Source: Hydra vulgaris
Lineage: Eukaryota > Cnidaria > Hydrozoa > Anthoathecata > Hydridae
Assembly: GCF_038396675.1 (NCBI RefSeq)
Contig: NC_088922.1
Location: 62,995,001-63,059,000 of the forward strand
Direction: 5' to 3'
DNA length: 64,000 nucleotides
The notes under the pieces were generated by a model. That model was not told where the DNA came from and searched no databases. It saw nothing but the letters and a program-made list of their open reading frames with translations. Within the stretch, counting starts at the first letter, position 1, and each line of letters opens with the position of its first letter. Shown here piece by piece: positions 3,085 through 61,268 of the stretch. The position numbers and the translations under genes are program-made.

Positions 3085-4456
3085 AGTATGCGACAAAAGT
3101 TTTTACATATTTTTGAAAAATATTCTTTTTCAAAATTTTACAATACTTCTTGTATTCTTCAACAGTTATCGAACTCCAAACATACTTAACTCGTTCCCAT
3201 AATTCTTTTCGACTGGCTGCTCTTGTTTCATAATTATAAACTCGATTCTTCTCAATAGACCAAAGATTCTCGATCGGGTTAGGATCGGGACTTTGCGCAG
3301 GTCACTCTAGAATCTTAAATTTCTTCGAATTTAGGAATTCTAATGTGATTTTTGCCTTCTGCTTTGGATCATTGTCTTGCATAAAAAGTGTCGAACGAAT
3401 TTGCTTTCGCCATCCTCGTAAACTAGGCAAATAGCCATTGTTTAAAATGTCAATATAATGTTTCGCGTCCATTATTCTATCAATTTTTACGATTTTACCA
3501 ACACCAGACGAAGAGAAACATCCCTAAAACAACAACTTTCCGCCGCCATATTTTACTGTTGGAATAAAGTCACGATCAGAAATTCCTTCTCCAGCTTTTT
3601 TCCATACATATCGAATGCCATCAGAGCCAATCAAGTAAATCTTGCTTTCGTCTGTCCAAATCACCTTACTCCACTCAGCAAAAATCCAGTTTTCATACTT
3701 CTTTGCAAATTCCAATCGTTGTTTACGATATTTCGGTGTTAGTAGTGGTTTCTTGATCTTCTTTTTTGCCTTGAATCCAATTCTCTTGAGTTCTCTCTGT
3801 ACTGTTCGAGTACTTACCACTGTACCTTGAGCATTATTTAATTGTTTCTTTACATCGTATGCTGATTTTTGCTTTATTTGTCATGATTATTCTAGAAATT
3901 GTTCTCTGATCTCGAGTAGTGAAAATTTTCTTGCGTCCATTTTTGTTGCATTTCTCCTCTATATCGTTTCGCTTCTTAGTTTTATAGATTAAACAATAAG
4001 ATATATTAAGTTCTCGTCCTATCTCACGAAGAGACAATTCTGATTTAAGCGTCTGAACAGCTAAATTTTCAATTTCTTTCGACACTTTTTTCATTCTTTC
4101 AATTATAGTTTTTCTGTTGTTTACATTACGACTTTTAAGTTTAAGTAAACCGTTTATTACTAATTGAGATATGTTTTATTTAAGCAAATTAAAAATATAG
4201 CCACAAAGTATTAATTTTGCATTAGAATTAATAATAGCATAAATCGCGACAAAACTGTTTACATCTGACATTTTGTTTCAATAAATAATTTGCTATAAAC
4301 ACTTCTCATTCATTTAAATTCAGGCTCAAAACATGAAACAACAATGAATTACCTTTATTTTGGTATATATATATTGATATATAAAAATGTATTTCAATCA
4401 TTTATTTTAAAAAAGAATATTTTTCAAAAACATGTAAACACTTTTGTCGCATACTG

Positions 4457-8384: not shown

Positions 8385-11300
8385 TCAGAGGAAATTGATC
8401 TTTCGAGCTTTACTCATGGCGAATTTGGAAATCACTTCACCGTAGCACAACTTTTTGGCAAGATCATGCTCAATGGAAATAACCAGAAGATTCGTGAGTC
8501 GTTCTTGGCTCATTGTAGACCTTAAAGCTGTCTTAACTAGAGCAAGCTTACTAAAAGATCTCTCGCCTTCCGCAACAGAAACAGGGATGGTGTTGAAGAT
8601 GCGCAGCAAAATGCAGACTGATTCGAAGAGCGGCTGAAGACCTTTCTGGTATATTCCATTCAATAACGTCATGGAAGTGAGAGATTCTTTAGGACCAAAA
8701 AGATTGGATCGCTTCAGAGCATCGAGGTGGCGGACCTCTTTAATAAGTTTCTCTTCCTCAACATCGGTCGCGTAGATTTGTGCCAAGACCTTGCATTTCT
8801 CCTCCAATTGGATAGATGCTTCAACACTTTCTTCTGATTCTTCTTCATTTGACATAACAAGAGATTTCAATGACCACAAGAAGGAAAACATATTCGTCGT
8901 CTTCTCAGCAGCTTGGAATCTATCGCTGACCTGCTGAATAAGAGTATCAAAAGCGGTATTGAATACGCTCACCTCAAACTCTTTTGCTTCGTCTTCATGG
9001 AAATGAGCGGTGTTCCTCACCTCTTCGTGAAAGGTCTTCCTTTTTTTCGTCCTCTTCTTCACAAATTCTGATTGAAAACCAAAAGAAGCAAGACCAGATG
9101 CTATCAAACGTGCCTCATTAAGGATGCTGGTCCAAGATGATCTCAGTCGATTTAGATCTTCAATAAGAGTCTTAATGAGTTTCATCTCGTCGTCCAAGGA
9201 TATATTTTCTGATTGGAGTGCAAGGCTCACGTAGTTGATTGATTGAAGCGTTTTATACCAAAAGGTTGTCATTACGATGAACTCGAATGAATGAACCCAC
9301 TTCTCCAGAGATTTTACTTCATTCAATTGATCAGCTGTTAGATCAAAATCGCGGAGCTTTTTCAAAGATTCGAGGATTTCCCTGGATCGCTTGACTAACG
9401 GCTTCACGGCCTCGATTCGCGCACTCCATCTGGTTTGCGACGTTTGATGACGGGACAAACCAGTGGTTTCAATCAAGACTTTCCACCGACTAGGGCTTCC
9501 AGTGAAAAGATTGTAAATAGACAGGACTCGGCCAAAGTAGTTCTTGACTTCAACCAAAGATTCAGCAGAATGAACACCAGCAAGGTTGAGACTATGAGTG
9601 CTGCATGGCATATAGAGAGCTTGAGGATTTTTTTGCAGTATAATCGCCTGTACTCCTTTGTATATACCGGACTTGTTCGCTCCATTGTCATATCCTTAAC
9701 CTCTGCAGTTTTTGAGTTCGATTCCATTTTGTTCTAAGACGTCCATAATAAGCTTGGCAATGTCAGCACCTATCTTTTTTTCAAGATTCTCGACCCTCAG
9801 AAAGCGCTCCTTCACGGTCCATTTTTTGTCATTACCAAAGTATACAAAGCGGAGAACAAAGGTGATTTGCTCGGTGTGAGAGACGTCCGGAGTCCCGTCC
9901 ACAAGAATGGAATAGTAGATGGCCATATGAGCTTCGTTGATGATGGCACCGTGAACGATTCCTCCGCACTCTTTGATGAATTCATTTTGAGTGCTCCAGC
10001 GCAAGTAATGGGCATTCATTTTGTTACCTTCTTGTTGGCAGCGGGAAACTTCTTCTAAGTGTAGTTGGAGAGTCTTGTTGTGCTTGGCCAAGAGCTCTAG
10101 GATAGCTAGAAAGTTACCATTGTCGTCTTCTCCAATCATTTTTGATAAACCTAAAAATTATAATAATAAGACAGATTTATTTAAAACAATAAAGAAGCAT
10201 TTGTTTTATTTTATGATGATTCTATGATGATTTTATATTATGATTTATGAATATTATAACATATTTATTTAAAAGAATAAAGAAGGATTTGTTTTATTTA
10301 ATGATTTCCAAAATATCTAGTTAATCTTATAAATATAAGCTAAATAGATTTAAAGATAGTCGGTATCACAATAGAATAATTGTAAATAGATTTACCTCTG
10401 AAACTAAGGTTTCGTGACGCTAAAAAAAGAGTAACATCTAAGATGCATCGTGGAATTTCACGCCACCTGGCTGCTTCATTTCTTATCGAGTTTTCAAGAG
10501 CTGCATCTATTCCGCTTTGATTTTCTAAGCTTTCTAGCGCCGTTTTCCATTCTATGTAAAAGTTTCGATGCTGGGTGTTATTCTGGGGACTTTTGACTTT
10601 CTCAGGTAGCTTGTGCCAGTTGCAGCTTATTCCATCATTCCATCTTAGAAGGTGCGACTGGTGTCCGATCCCAAAAGATTGTTTGCTTCCAAACAAAGAA
10701 CACGGAAAGCACATAAATGATTTCTTAGATACACTCCAGACCAGCCAATCTCGGCATGTCTTCTCCCCGTTGAGAAAAGTTTCGTAGAAAATTGATTCAG
10801 GAACCTTCTTCTTATTAGAATCTTTCGGGAAAGCTGAAGGATTTCGAGGAAGCCCCTGTAGAAGCACAGAATCTCTTTCCACTTTGGAAAGATGTGCTGC
10901 CCACAAAGCAGGATCATTGGAAAGAATGGTAGCGATGGGTTCTTCTGTTGGCAACACCTGAGAATAAATTTTAAAAAATCTTATTTTATTGTTTAAAAGT
11001 TTATTGACATCATTTCTTTTAAAGAGGTAGAACTTACCAAAATATTCTCTTCATTCACAGCTACCATTCCGACTTTTGATAGGGGCTCTCCCGAGCTTTC
11101 AGAAATGTCAGTGACATCGTTTTCAGTTCCAACCTATAAAAAAAACTTAAAAATTTATATAACATTGAATTAATCAAATGGGAAAATATCCTTTCACGGG
11201 GAAAACTATTTACTACTTGAATCGATTGACTTGGCAGGAAAGAGTTTGAAGCAGTAGGACTTTCATCTTCTCCTTTTTTTGTAACTGTAATACCACAGTC

Positions 11301-12639: not shown

Positions 12640-13700
12640 TAATTATTTCGATATTTCGCTGATCTATCGTGATCAGCGTCAAAATATAATACAAAAATTT
12701 TTTTTCTTAAACAACTGACGTCAGCGCCAAAATATAATACAAAAAATTTTTTTCTTAAACAACTGACGTCAGCAGATTTTATTAAAAAATGGCCCCCAGG
12801 TTTTAGTTGTCACGTTTTTACCGTCATCCCGATTGAGAACCACATCACCATTTCTCAACTCCTGTCGAACCCTAGCTTTGCTTTTTTCGAGTGACTCTCT
12901 GATTTTCCGAGTTCGATATTTTGGGGCTACAGCTAATGTTTTGGGGTGCAACCAATCAAACTTACCCTGGCATGTTTTGGAATGTTTAGTTGCACCCGAA
13001 CTGGACCATTTTTCTTTTAAGCTGTTTTTCTGGTGTTCAATACATCTCGATATCACCGTCTTTTTAGTTTCACCAATGTATATCGAACCGCATGAACATT
13101 TTAGCTGGTATACGCCAGGGTTTTTGTTTAGTGGTAGTTTAGTTTTATTGTTGCAAAAAATACTTTTTAAATTGGGAGTTGATGTGAAAATAACCTTTAT
13201 ATTTTGTTTTCGAAATTCTTGTCGAAGTTTTGGACCAATAATTGGTATCCAAGGTAGTTTTATAAAGGGTTGGGTATCTAATGGATGACATGTGGTGTTT
13301 TTTGAACCGCTTTTTAATTAGTCTATAGTAATATTATTTAGAATGTTCTTGTCGTGGCCATTTTCAACAAATATGTCTATTAGAAAATCAATTTCTTTTT
13401 GAAGGTGTTTTTGAGAGCAAATTCTTTTTGCACGACATAAAAAATTTTTTGAAAACGCCAATAATAATGTTAGGAATGATGTTTTCGATATTAGTTATAA
13501 TATCCATATAAAGAATTTTTTTCTGCAGTGGTACAAAATTTGGACCTAAATTGAGTAGCTCAGTTGTTGATTTATCCAGAGTAACATTAGTTAAATTGAG
13601 TAAAGCAGGTTTAATAACTTGATTGGAAGGATCAAAAGTATTTTTTATAATCGGTGTAATTTGTAATTTAAAATATTTTTCTTTCATTTATGTTTTTTTC
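12640..13700 (-). mobile_element. Penelope-like element family A, copy 1, RT core deleted
   Basis: On the minus strand, 13687-13388 encodes the N-terminal region of a Penelope-like protein (LLNLGPNFVPLQKKILYMDI). The text then jumps near 13440 to sequence that normally lies after the reverse transcriptase, and continues in broken frames to the GIY-YIG endonuclease: [18 protein letters not shown] near 13080, then [20 protein letters not shown] and a basic tail to 12769. The whole RT core is missing, so this is an internal-deletion copy. The endonuclease half keeps a long open frame (13056-12769). In intact elements the two domains together carry out target-primed reverse transcription. The 3' side holds a duplicated 48-bp block and part of a hammerhead-like motif. 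Confidence 0.85.
12675..12772. repeat. 48-bp tandem duplication in the Penelope 3' region
   Basis: Two copies, at about 12675-12722 and 12724-12772, both contain AAAATATAATACAAAAA and CTTAAACAACTGACGTCA with few differences. The + strand partner at 14.7-14.8 kb lacks this duplication. Confidence 0.85.
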
Positions 13701-13853: not shown

Positions 13854-14375
<522 letters not shown>

Positions 14376-14377
<2 letters not shown>

Positions 14378-14850
14378 TGGTGAAACTAAAAAGAAGGTGA
14401 TATCGAGATGTATTGAACACCAGAAAAACAGCTTAAAAGAAAAATGGTCCAGTTCGGGTGCAACTGAACATTCCAAAACATGCCATGATAAGTTTGATTG
14501 GTTGCACCCCAAAACATTATCTGTAGCCCCAGAATATCGAACTCGGAAAATCAGAGAGTCACTCGAAATAAGCAAAGCTAGGGTTCGACAGGAGTTGAGA
14601 AATGGTGGTGTGGTTCTCAATCGGGATGACAGTAAAAACGTGACAACTAAAACCTGGGGGCCATTTTTTAATAAAATCTGCTTACGTCAGTTATTTAAGA
14701 AAAAAAATTCTTGTATTATATTTTGGCTTTTTAGTGTTATCTTTTTAACGGTATGTTTTTACTATAACGATTTCTTTGAAACTATTTTATTTATTATACC
14801 TGATGACGCTGATCACGATAGATCAGCGAAATATCGAAATAATTATATAA
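14376..14850 (+). mobile_element. Penelope-like element family A, copy 2 (3' part)
   Basis: The plus strand continues from the TA arrays into [20 protein letters not shown] and [20 protein letters not shown], the GIY-YIG nuclease core, then [18 protein letters not shown] and a tail into the 3' untranslated region. It is the inverted partner of the copy at 12640-13700, with close similarity. Everything 5' of the YIG motif is replaced by TA repeats. The tail holds the hammerhead-like motif at 14800-14830 and ends at about 14850, where a different repeat begins. Confidence 0.85.
14800..14836 (+). ncRNA. Hammerhead-ribozyme-like motif in the Penelope 3' region
   Basis: CTGATGA (14800-14806) is followed by one C, a perfect 7-bp stem (GCTGATC / GATCAGC, loop ACGATA) and GAAA. 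That is the conserved core of a hammerhead ribozyme with stem II, apart from the single extra C. Penelope-like elements are known to carry hammerhead motifs in their terminal regions. The stem III side (ATATCG) is weak, so self-cleavage is uncertain. The minus copy at 12649-12678 keeps stem II and GAAA but lacks CTGATGA. Confidence 0.45.
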
Positions 14851-24240: not shown

Positions 24241-24721
24241 ATAAAGGGCAAAAGCTTCTCGGATTGCTTCTCGAATTGCTTCTCGGCCTAATGATTAAGA
24301 TCAAGTGTAGTATCTGTTCTTATTTCGGCTCCGGACCATCTCTCAATTGGTTACGGTGTTGTAAGAAAGCAGAAATAGCACAAGATCGAAACCTTGACAG
24401 TGGATAGATGTTCTTGGCGTAGTCGCTTTTTTAGTCTCTCATTCTACGTCCGGAAATCTCAAAGTGATCCGTCACTCCGGACGTTAAATGGAGATAAACC
24501 ATTAAGTTGGCGCTTCTCAGTTTCGGCTGAGTGGCAACTAAACCCTTAAGTAGGCCGTACTAAACCCTTAAATGGGCTATAAAACCCTTAAGTGGGACAA
24601 AATACTGAGTCTCGGCTCCCAAATAACACCTCCTTCTAGGGCCCTGTGTAAGTCTGGTTTCAGCTGCAGGTGTCTCTAGTTGGTCGGTAAAAAAATAAAA
24701 TAAAAATAAAGGGCAAAAGCT
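24241..24721 (+). mobile_element. SINE-like insertion with U2 snRNA-like head
   Basis: The 16-bp direct repeat ATAAAGGGCAAAAGCT flanks the insertion at 24241-24256 and 24706-24721. Positions 24275-24322 match the first 48 nt or so of U2 snRNA, including GCTTCTCGGCCT, AAGATCAAGTGTAG and TATCTGTTCTTAT, with about five differences. The U2 segment that pairs with the intron branch site (GTAGTA) is intact. Just before it the 5' end is stuttered: CTTCTCG occurs three times in about 30 bp. The body (24323-24680) is unrelated to U2 and includes three copies of AAACCCTTAAGT/ATGGGC. It ends in AAAAAAATAAAATAAAAATA. Target duplications and an A-rich tail indicate retroposition. Confidence 0.75.
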
Positions 24722-36588: not shown

Positions 36589-37960
36589 GTACAGTGCTGG
36601 TCAAAAAGATCCGACCACTAAGGTATTTAGACAGAAACGTAATACCACTTCAATTTAATGATAATATGATTGAATTAAATGCAACAAACAACATTCACAT
36701 AAATCAATGACACACTTTTGAAGAAACCAACAAGAAGTTCAGATCAGAAAAGAGTTTCTAGTACCTCGAATGTCTTCCTGCGGCTTTGAGGACAGCTTCT
36801 CTTCTTCGAAGTATAGAGGCAACAAGAGAGTCACAATAATCAGACATTATTTTTTGGGACCACGCCTCCAGTATAGCCTCCTTTAAAGTTGTCGCCGACA
36901 TCGAGTTTGCTTTTGCCACTTCTGCTTTCAATTTTACCCAGCAATTTTCAATCGGGTTTAAATCGGGTGACAAGCCAGGCCACGGAGAACATTGATGGAA
37001 TTCTCTTAAAATCATCTCTTGACGATCTTTGCCCAATGACATGGCGCGCCGTCATGCATAAAGATGTCACAGTTGCGAGTCGTGAGCCGAGTAGGAACAT
37101 TTACCTTTATTATTTGCAAATAATTAAGAGCATTGATAGTTTCACCTGACGGCATGAGATGGATTCCCGCTCGACCTCTGGCAGTAATTGCTCCCCAAAT
37201 CATAATTGCAGGGCAATGTTTTACCGCTGGAGCAATATAACGGGCATTGTAGCGTGTGTTTGGTGGCCGTCGAATATTCACTTTATGCGTAGCAAATTGT
37301 TTCACTTGCGATTCGTCTGAGAACATGACACGTCGCCACATTGCCACGGTCCAATTTTTAAGCGGTTTACAAAATTTGAGGCGGTCACGAATATTTTTTT
37401 GAGATAGTTGTGGTTTTAATGCAGCGCGATAGGATCGAAGACTGAAATTATCCACAAGGCGTCGCCGAATGGTGCGAGAGCTCACATTTACATCAGGAGG
37501 CAGTTCATTGAGAATTTGTGAAGATGATGACAGTGGGTCTTTCGTGGCTGCACAGCGGATCAGAGCGTCAGTTTTTAATTTGGTACATCTCGGTCTGCCA
37601 CTGGATCTTCCTGAAGCGCGAGTGCTTGTTGACTTTATGTGCTAAATAAAGTCGTGAGCAGTTGTCTTAGGCATTTGTAAACGTGCGGCAATCGCACGTT
37701 CAGACTTTTTGTCTTCCATCAAAAGTTGTATTGCAGCACGTTTTCCAGGTGATGTTGTCGCCTAGTCAAATGCAAATAGTAATTCACTGCCACGCATGCG
37801 ATGGTATATATAACAATAGTACAACTGTTTTGATTAGCTGATAACTAGCCAACCATGCATGCAAAGCATGATGGTGAAACTCCGAGGAAAGCGCCTACAC
37901 TACAATGTACAGACTGAATACATAGATAAACAATGCGTGGTTGGATCTTTTTGACAAATT
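36589..37960. mobile_element. Tc1/mariner element 2, about 1.37 kb
   Basis: The left end carries GGTCAAAAAGATCCGACCAC near 36599, and the right end its counterpart GTGGTTGGATCTTTTTGACA near 37940. TA flanks both sides. The minus-strand transposase fills the interior. It differs from element 1 in both terminal sequence and protein, so it is a separate Tc1 family. It appears to split a LINE. Confidence 0.85.
36758..37800 (-). pseudogene. Tc1-like transposase 2, broken
   Basis: The N-terminal helix-turn-helix region (from MRGSELLFAF at about 37797; SPGKRAAIQLLMEDKKSERA; SGRSSGRPRCTKLKTDALI) has two stops, TAG and TAA. The catalytic frame 37485-37012 contains LKNWTVAMWRRVMFSDESQV (first Asp) and NCDIFMHDGAPCH (second Asp). 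A frameshift near 37030 leads to the last frame, 37042-36758, with PWPGLSPDLNPIENCWVKLK (Glu) and the C terminus. Motifs and order are standard Tc1. Confidence 0.9.
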
Positions 37961-59945: not shown

Positions 59946-60372
59946 ATGGTTAGCATTCAGAAATGCCCACTATACTGCCAATCTAAAAATATTTAAGGTC
60001 AGCAAAAAATCGCCAACCTTTGAATCTATGTTTTTTGGTAACACCTTCATGTCAAGTTTTTTTTGCCAACCTGATGCTGACCTCTAACAGTTTTAGATTG
60101 GTAGAAAATTGCCAACCTCAATTTTCCTAATTCCAAGGATTAATGTATATATATATATATATATATATATGAGCCCTCAGAATTAGGAAAACTGAAGTCA
60201 GCAATTTATTGCCAACTTTAAACTGTTGAGGTCAACCTCAGATTGGCCAAAAAAAATTTGAAACAAAGAGGTTACCATAAAACATAGAAACAAGGTTGGC
60301 ATTTTTTTGCACTTTGAGGTTGACAGTGAGGTTGCCATTGCCAAATGTTGACCCTAATTCCTAGGGCTAATA
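59946..60372. mobile_element. MITE with long inverted repeats and a TA core
   Basis: Two arms of about 190 bp are inverted copies, at about 75-80% by eye. Shared blocks are TTGCCAACCT, TCTATGTTTTTTGGTAAC, and TTTTCCTAATTC near the centre, and TTAGC at both edges. A short TA run (60149-60171) forms the centre. There is no coding capacity; the frame at 59902-60087 is accidental. Confidence 0.75.
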
Positions 60373-61117: not shown

Positions 61118-61268
61118 AATTAGTAAAAACATTTATCTAATTTTTAGTTTTCTTCAACATTGGTGTTTCTCCATCAGTCGGTTCATCAGGAAGCTTCCTG
61201 ATGAATCTACTGATGGAGAAACATAATGTTGAAAAAAACTAAAAATTAGATAAATGTTTTTACTAATT
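61118..61268. repeat. 150-bp palindrome centred on AAGCTT
   Basis: Arms of about 75 bp meet at AGGAAGCTTCCT (61189-61200) with no spacer and differ at only a few sites. Each arm, read outward from the centre, contains CCTGATGAA then GATGGAGAAACA, which resembles a hammerhead core with a short stem II. It abuts a TA array on its left. Confidence 0.95.

Follow-up and report, generated by a model that had tools for sequence, protein, structure and literature searches.

A short SINE-like retroposon of Hydra vulgaris with a U2 snRNA head and a probable home site in the U2 genes

U2 snRNA is transcribed by RNA polymerase II (Pol II) from an external promoter, and a retrocopy cannot carry that promoter with it. 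How, then, would a retroposon headed by U2 be transcribed? The question arises from a first-pass annotation of a 64,000-nucleotide stretch of Hydra vulgaris DNA on contig C3 (hereafter the window, meaning the whole stretch that was analysed), in which one insert was described as a SINE-like retroposon with a U2 head. Genome-wide searches, which covered 911,502,276 bases of Hydra vulgaris in 15 contigs, placed this insert in a family that also has members inside U2 genes. The window copy is very probably an old, dispersed member of a family of short non-autonomous retroposons that is at home in U2 snRNA genes and uses read-through RNA from the U2 promoter as its template.

The annotated U2-headed insertion with 16-bp target duplications and an A-rich tail was confirmed by direct reading. 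It is 449 bp long (24257-24705), its duplications are perfect, and 46 of 49 U2 nucleotides agree with the host gene (Table 1), the differences being C3T, G20A and C21T. The second-best ungapped match to the 49 nt of the head within the window, with both strands compared, is 27/49. The Rfam U2 family (RF00004) scored 41.2 bits on the window (E 7.5e-5), which is below its gathering score of 46; the U2 portion of this copy is the 5' quarter only. The motif GTAGTA, which we take to be the branch-site-pairing segment of U2, is kept in the head. The stutter described at the 5' end is also real, as two partial U2 5' ends stand ahead of the full head: the end of the target duplication with TCTCGG comes first, then ATTGCTTCTCGA, and then the complete head. 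Partial or double heads occur elsewhere at L029/L101, L110, L068/L071, L074/L075/L077 and L065. In the body, one subfamily of the element has an additional unit of the AAACCCTTAAxTGGGC type (30-copy alignment). A search of the window with the insert revealed no other copy of the element.

Table 1. Parts of the insert and its flanking duplications, in window coordinates.
Feature	Position	Strand	Basis
5' target site duplication, ATAAAGGGCAAAAGCT	24241..24256	+	16/16 bp identical to 24706-24721
Stuttered 5' end: TCTCGG and ATTGCTTCTCGA, two partial U2 5' ends	24257..24274	+	Direct reading
Head, U2 snRNA nt 1-49	24275..24323	+	46/49 identical to host U2 gene
Element body proper	24324..24632	+	Alignment with copies located in U2 genes
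B-box-like GATCGAAAC	24384..24392	+	Pattern match only; also read in window sequence
Run of six T in body	24427..24432	+	Expected Pol III stop
Three tandem AAACCCTTAAxTGGGC-type repeats	24540..24597	+	30-copy alignment
3' tail common to element and U2-inserted LINE	24633..24688	+	Sequence comparison
A-rich tail	24689..24705	+	Direct reading
3' target site duplication	24706..24721	+	Perfect copy of 24241-24256

Genome-wide, the pattern of the head-body junction was found at 93 places with up to three mismatches, and the reversed control pattern at none. Copies with both the head and the body thus form a family, and the possibility of a single genomic copy, a one-off chimeric retropseudogene, falls away. 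A search with the insert itself gave at least 47 matches (40 of 349 candidates scored), many of which span U2 nt 1 to the tail. Similarly, a 3' motif of the element occurs at 122 places, with none for its control. Of this motif, 92 rows were paired, 53 with an upstream junction and 39 without a nearby one. Fourteen loci from these 39 rows were read and comprised two LINEs, one truncated copy within a U2 gene, three truncated copies, three loci with the 3' part of an ORF1-only element (discussed below), four that represent one passenger copy, and one headed copy. None of the 14 had the body's own 5' end as its start.

Individual examination of 51 copies (30 + 21) revealed three settings: six copies have a U2 upstream region before the head, nine are nested and 36 are dispersed. 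In five of the six copies with a U2 upstream region, U2 resumes behind the tail; in the other (L106), the tail is followed by decayed target and another element. The nine nested copies begin at AGTATCTGTTCTTAT or a near variant after an A-run and represent insertions into the duplicated target. The dispersed copies start at U2 nt 1-5 in 35 cases out of 36, the exception being L028, which starts at nt 14. Five segmental duplicates (L009, L097, L098, L100 and L101) were dropped, which left 31 independent dispersed copies, 30 with a start at U2 nt 1-5. That each copy should have its own target duplication held for most of these: exact duplications of at least 11 bp were found in 16 (among them L096, which is of low complexity) and of 7-10 bp in six (L011 having been read by eye and L029 from its duplicate L101), while none was visible in nine. 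The target sites gave an unconvincing sign of a U2-like preference, with a mean match of 4.7/14 versus 4.0 for random sites (p 0.05, 16 hand-picked sites). Overall, the general characters of SINEs are present, the element being short, non-coding and multicopy, with an A-rich tail and, in most dispersed copies, target duplications of its own.

Several copies lie in composite surroundings. Passenger copies were seen within three other dispersed repeats (L074/L075/L077; L067/L069/L070; L083/L084/L089/L090), and the four copies of the last group have one common flank and an identical start point. At L027 (C2:20573835), telomere-type repeats (GGGTTA) precede the copy, behind another U2-site fragment. 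Chains of U2-site elements, one behind another, were observed at L022 and L023 (C2:20.6 Mb) and at L025, L026 and L109 (C8:18.9-19.4 Mb). The cluster on C8 is possibly a defunct U2 array; the 46 scored U2 matches (of 87,368 candidates) all fall outside it.

The U2 genes themselves were found as at least 46 matches, all above the cut-off (46 of 87,368 candidates scored), at C2:20.92-21.30 Mb, where they form a tandem array with a 366-bp unit on a chromosome other than that of the window. In 26 kb of this array, analysed in full, 13 units are intact and nine of 22 are interrupted near one site. On the 3' side, eight of the nine inserts are followed by U2 from nt 35/36 and the other by U2 from about nt 37. 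On the 5' side, U2 stops at nt 47-49 in seven; the stop at about nt 41 belongs to a 116-bp scrap and that at nt 28 to a 6.5-kb LINE, which is hence without a duplication. Two of the nine inserts are the short element. The 174-bp U2 upstream region and U2 nt 1-49 stand unchanged 5' of both, and thus what looks like a 'head' in a resident copy is the host gene itself. The target duplication of the U2-resident copies consists of 14-15 bp of U2, AGTATCTGTTCTTAT. Head nt 1-34 were found, with up to two mismatches, at 307 places genome-wide (control, none), and three places in the U2 array hold pairs of heads with a spacing of 77 bp. One of these is L065, in which a U2 gene with its own head is followed by 28 nt of scrambled target letters, a second head and then an ORF1-only element. 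We read L065 as a headed RNA that returned to U2 without pairing of its head.

Two LINEs occupy U2 genes as well. The one at L080 (C2:21.0547-21.0599 Mb) lies inside a U2 gene with its 5' junction after U2 nt 45, and its 972-aa ORF contains endonuclease and RT domains. The comparison with LINE 3' ends, proposed in the first-pass annotation, gave a direct match: the last 61 bp (A's included) of a U2-resident copy of the element are 100% identical to those of the LINE in L080 and L081. L081 is a second copy of this LINE that agrees with L080 in the 61 bp and in the length of the ORF (the domain test covered L080), and the two may be duplicates of one insertion. The second LINE in the array is 6.5 kb long and has a 1,181-aa ORF, with endonuclease and RT in the first 846 residues, and a different tail. 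PF03372 and PF00078 were detected in both LINEs. The LINE sharing the 3' end of the element is, by this resemblance, its likely partner.

The same U2 site also holds ORF1-only elements, which encode an ORF1-like protein of 455-607 aa. Pfam returned no family for the ORF1-like proteins (four LINE and element proteins were tested); the proteins of the ORF1-only elements match the ORF1 of the LINE. One ORF1-only type has 65 bp of tail in common with the short element, at 89-92% identity. The 26 kb of U2 array contain five ORF1-only insertions of three types versus one LINE, and several families of this kind, non-autonomous and with only the ORF1-like gene kept, were observed in the C2 array (L061-L066, L079 and L093). 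The junction of U2 nt 21-49 with an ORF1-only element was found at 40 places, 35 of them on C2 and five elsewhere. Four of the latter five were read; their flanks are not U2, and their first nucleotide is U2 nt 1-4. U2-headed strays are thus not confined to the short element. A 9-bp target duplication is visible in one ORF1-only copy outside C2 (L114, with the 3' end taken as L082).

The site in U2, the tail common to element and LINE, the 5' ends at U2 +1 and the target duplications in most dispersed copies point to the following route as the most probable one, in which we infer the use of the U2 promoter, of the enzymes of this particular LINE and of pairing between head and target. A LINE with APE endonuclease and RT would insert the element at one U2 site, duplicating 14-15 bp (AGTATCTGTTCTTAT). 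The upstream promoter would stay with the interrupted gene, so that transcription would begin at U2 +1 and run into the element. The read-through RNA, with U2 nt 1-49 followed by the element and its poly(A), would be the template for new copies, with reverse transcription starting from the poly(A). On re-entry into U2, the cDNA head would pair with the U2 5' part of the target, usually leaving a single head. Off target, the entire U2-headed copy would be inserted with a target duplication of its own, and most dispersed copies, being without the U2 promoter, would be transcriptionally dead. The stutter would arise by re-copying or jumping at the 5' end of the RNA. The transcription question would accordingly find its answer in a parent copy within a U2 gene, driven by the U2 promoter.

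We also lean, with some reserve, towards a broader description of the system. The element would be a promoterless and headless, target-specific, SINE-like element that parks in an snRNA gene, borrows its Pol II promoter, and uses the 5' end of the gene both as a head and as a homology arm, forming with LINEs and ORF1-only elements a guild that takes up much of the U2 array.

Among the alternatives, it could be supposed that the dispersed copies are themselves competent, with the head inherited in a self-propagating SINE of the SINEU type and residence in U2 only a side line. Such a reading can draw on the 36 dispersed versus six U2-resident copies among those read, and on three head variants that are each common to two or three dispersed copies. 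It can also draw on relationships, since, among the 31 independent dispersed copies, 18 are closest to another dispersed copy, 11 to a U2 copy and two to a nested copy. The tree of copies is, however, nearly star-like, with two of 41 inner branches well supported; as proof that the U2 copies are sources it was discarded as indecisive, and it speaks neither for nor against seeding by dispersed copies. Variation in the head (nt 6-49) was further compared with that in the body across the 31 copies. Private variants amount to 22 of 1,348 letters (1.63%) in the head versus 185 of 10,851 (1.70%) in the body, and shared variants to three states at the 44 sites of the head versus 88 at the 365 of the body (Fisher test by sites, p 0.007). 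A test of shared versus private variants gave p 0.04; without the two most diverged copies this became p 0.21, and the test by sites p 0.039. The head carries little of the body's shared variation, which weighs against inheritance of the head from one dispersed copy to the next and fits, without proving it, a head renewed from conserved U2 genes while the body evolves. In addition, the ORF1-only elements yield U2-headed copies likewise, and an snRNA promoter, being located upstream of +1, does not travel with a copy. Propagation by competent dispersed copies is therefore considered improbable.

A classical SINE transcribed by RNA polymerase III (Pol III) would have its promoter, an A box and a B box, within the body, with the U2 head as a passenger or as a remodelled promoter. 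The B-box-like GATCGAAAC was indeed matched by pattern in two U2-resident copies, but strings resembling an A box follow it instead of preceding it, contrary to the order in such a promoter. In one U2-resident copy, an Rfam search that admitted hits up to E 10 reported U2 and five other families far under their cut-offs, and neither tRNA nor 7SL nor 5S. A run of four to six T interrupts the body in 24 of 27 non-duplicate copies and is absent from L018, L019 and L028. Further, a start at the 5' end of the body was seen at none of the 14 loci read among the 39 rows without a nearby junction, and the U2 nt 1-5 starts of the dispersed copies lie far upstream of any box. Pol III transcription of the element thus appears unlikely on these sequence features, and this origin of the family very improbable. 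A Pol III-gene head with an internal promoter, which defines a SINE in the strict sense, was not found in the U2-resident copy searched, and the element is therefore termed SINE-like. Of the original description, the family and the LINE tail support a SINE-like retroposon headed by U2, but the head differs from an ordinary one with an internal promoter. A tRNA origin, entertained from the A/B-box look by eye, was dropped, as Rfam showed no tRNA; eight calls by ARAGORN under relaxed scoring in two copies overlap, fall on both strands and were taken for chance.

Jumps of R2 to U12 snRNA and a tRNA have been suggested (PMC3414825), and heads that end at the snRNA 5' end, as well as the jump-like extra partial heads at some 5' ends, would suit an RT that jumped from element RNA to U2 snRNA for each copy; such jumping is the least probable origin of the head, since the junction falls at the same U2 nucleotide in 30 of 30 aligned copies, where jumps would vary it, and occurs as an actual insertion in U2 genes, where it is accompanied by the upstream region and a target duplication. 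The template switching at the start of U2 that had been suggested earlier is retained for the stutter only.

The parent copy within a U2 gene, as favoured here, can be set beside several known systems. Kojima reportedly described SINEU in 2015 as SINEs with heads derived from U1 or U2 snRNA and with a Tx1-type LINE as partner, and crocodilian SINEU is said to prefer a Mariner transposon as target. The Hydra retroposon is likewise short and non-autonomous, with a head derived from U2; in contrast, it resides in the same snRNA gene that gives its head. SINEU is cited in PMC5753468, PMC8010984 and PMC4640811. PMC4640811 describes Keno and the unrelated Utopia as LINEs that target U2 genes, and Keno as having an APE endonuclease and occurring in hydra. 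The two Hydra LINEs resemble Keno in their U2 location and in coding for endonuclease and RT. In that text, the U2 flank of Phytophthora Utopia is at nt 39, and the 3' flank of Keno is called identical to that of Utopia; in the Hydra array U2 restarts at nt 35/36. Keno and Utopia are LINEs, whereas the Hydra element is short and non-coding.

R2 elements of 28S genes offer further parallels. According to PMC3414825, R2 SIDEs are short elements with internal deletions that reside in the 28S genes of Drosophila. Similarly to the Hydra element, a SIDE is a short element in the target gene of its LINE and depends on co-transcription with that gene; in that account, however, the R2 ribozyme of the SIDE removes the gene sequence, whereas the Hydra element retains the 5' end of the gene as its head. 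Neither a 5' R2 ribozyme nor an R2 3' end was found here: the element shares its 3' end with an APE-type LINE, and Rfam showed no ribozyme family in a U2-resident copy. PMC3774820 treats R2 elements with a ribozyme that cleaves within the upstream 28S sequence; their RNA has target sequence at its 5' end, for which annealing to the target is postulated, and upstream sequences are duplicated at some R2 junctions, hydra included. Such duplications, as described there, resemble the double head and the stutter of the Hydra element, although the gene and the type of LINE are different and the Hydra element retains the entire U2 5' end from +1. A search limited to a collection of open literature found neither a SINE resident in U2 genes nor a U2-headed SINE of Hydra. 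A SINE-like element whose head is the 5' end of its target gene appears to be a new variant beside the known SINEU, Keno and Utopia.

Copies of the element inside U2 genes would give, in a laboratory animal, a simple and testable answer to the puzzle of snRNA-headed SINEs, and if this is true, the same route could account for the origin of such SINEs generally. In addition, an essential snRNA array is seen here to carry many insertions, with nine of 22 units broken in 26 kb. The tolerance of the host for chimeric RNAs bearing the branch-site-pairing part of U2 thereby becomes a question.

The window contains other features of note. Long hairpins at 60058-60252 and 61141-61245, where microRNA-family matches remain far under cut-offs, are possibly small inverted-repeat transposons. 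Open frames at 12769-13317 and 14147-14686 lie beside long TA-rich repeats, and one of them encodes, as read by eye, a putative GIY-YIG endonuclease of a Penelope-like element. On the minus strand, open frames at 3524-4175, 37012-37641 and 8385-11050 were likewise recognized by eye as putative transposases of the Tc1/mariner and hAT types.
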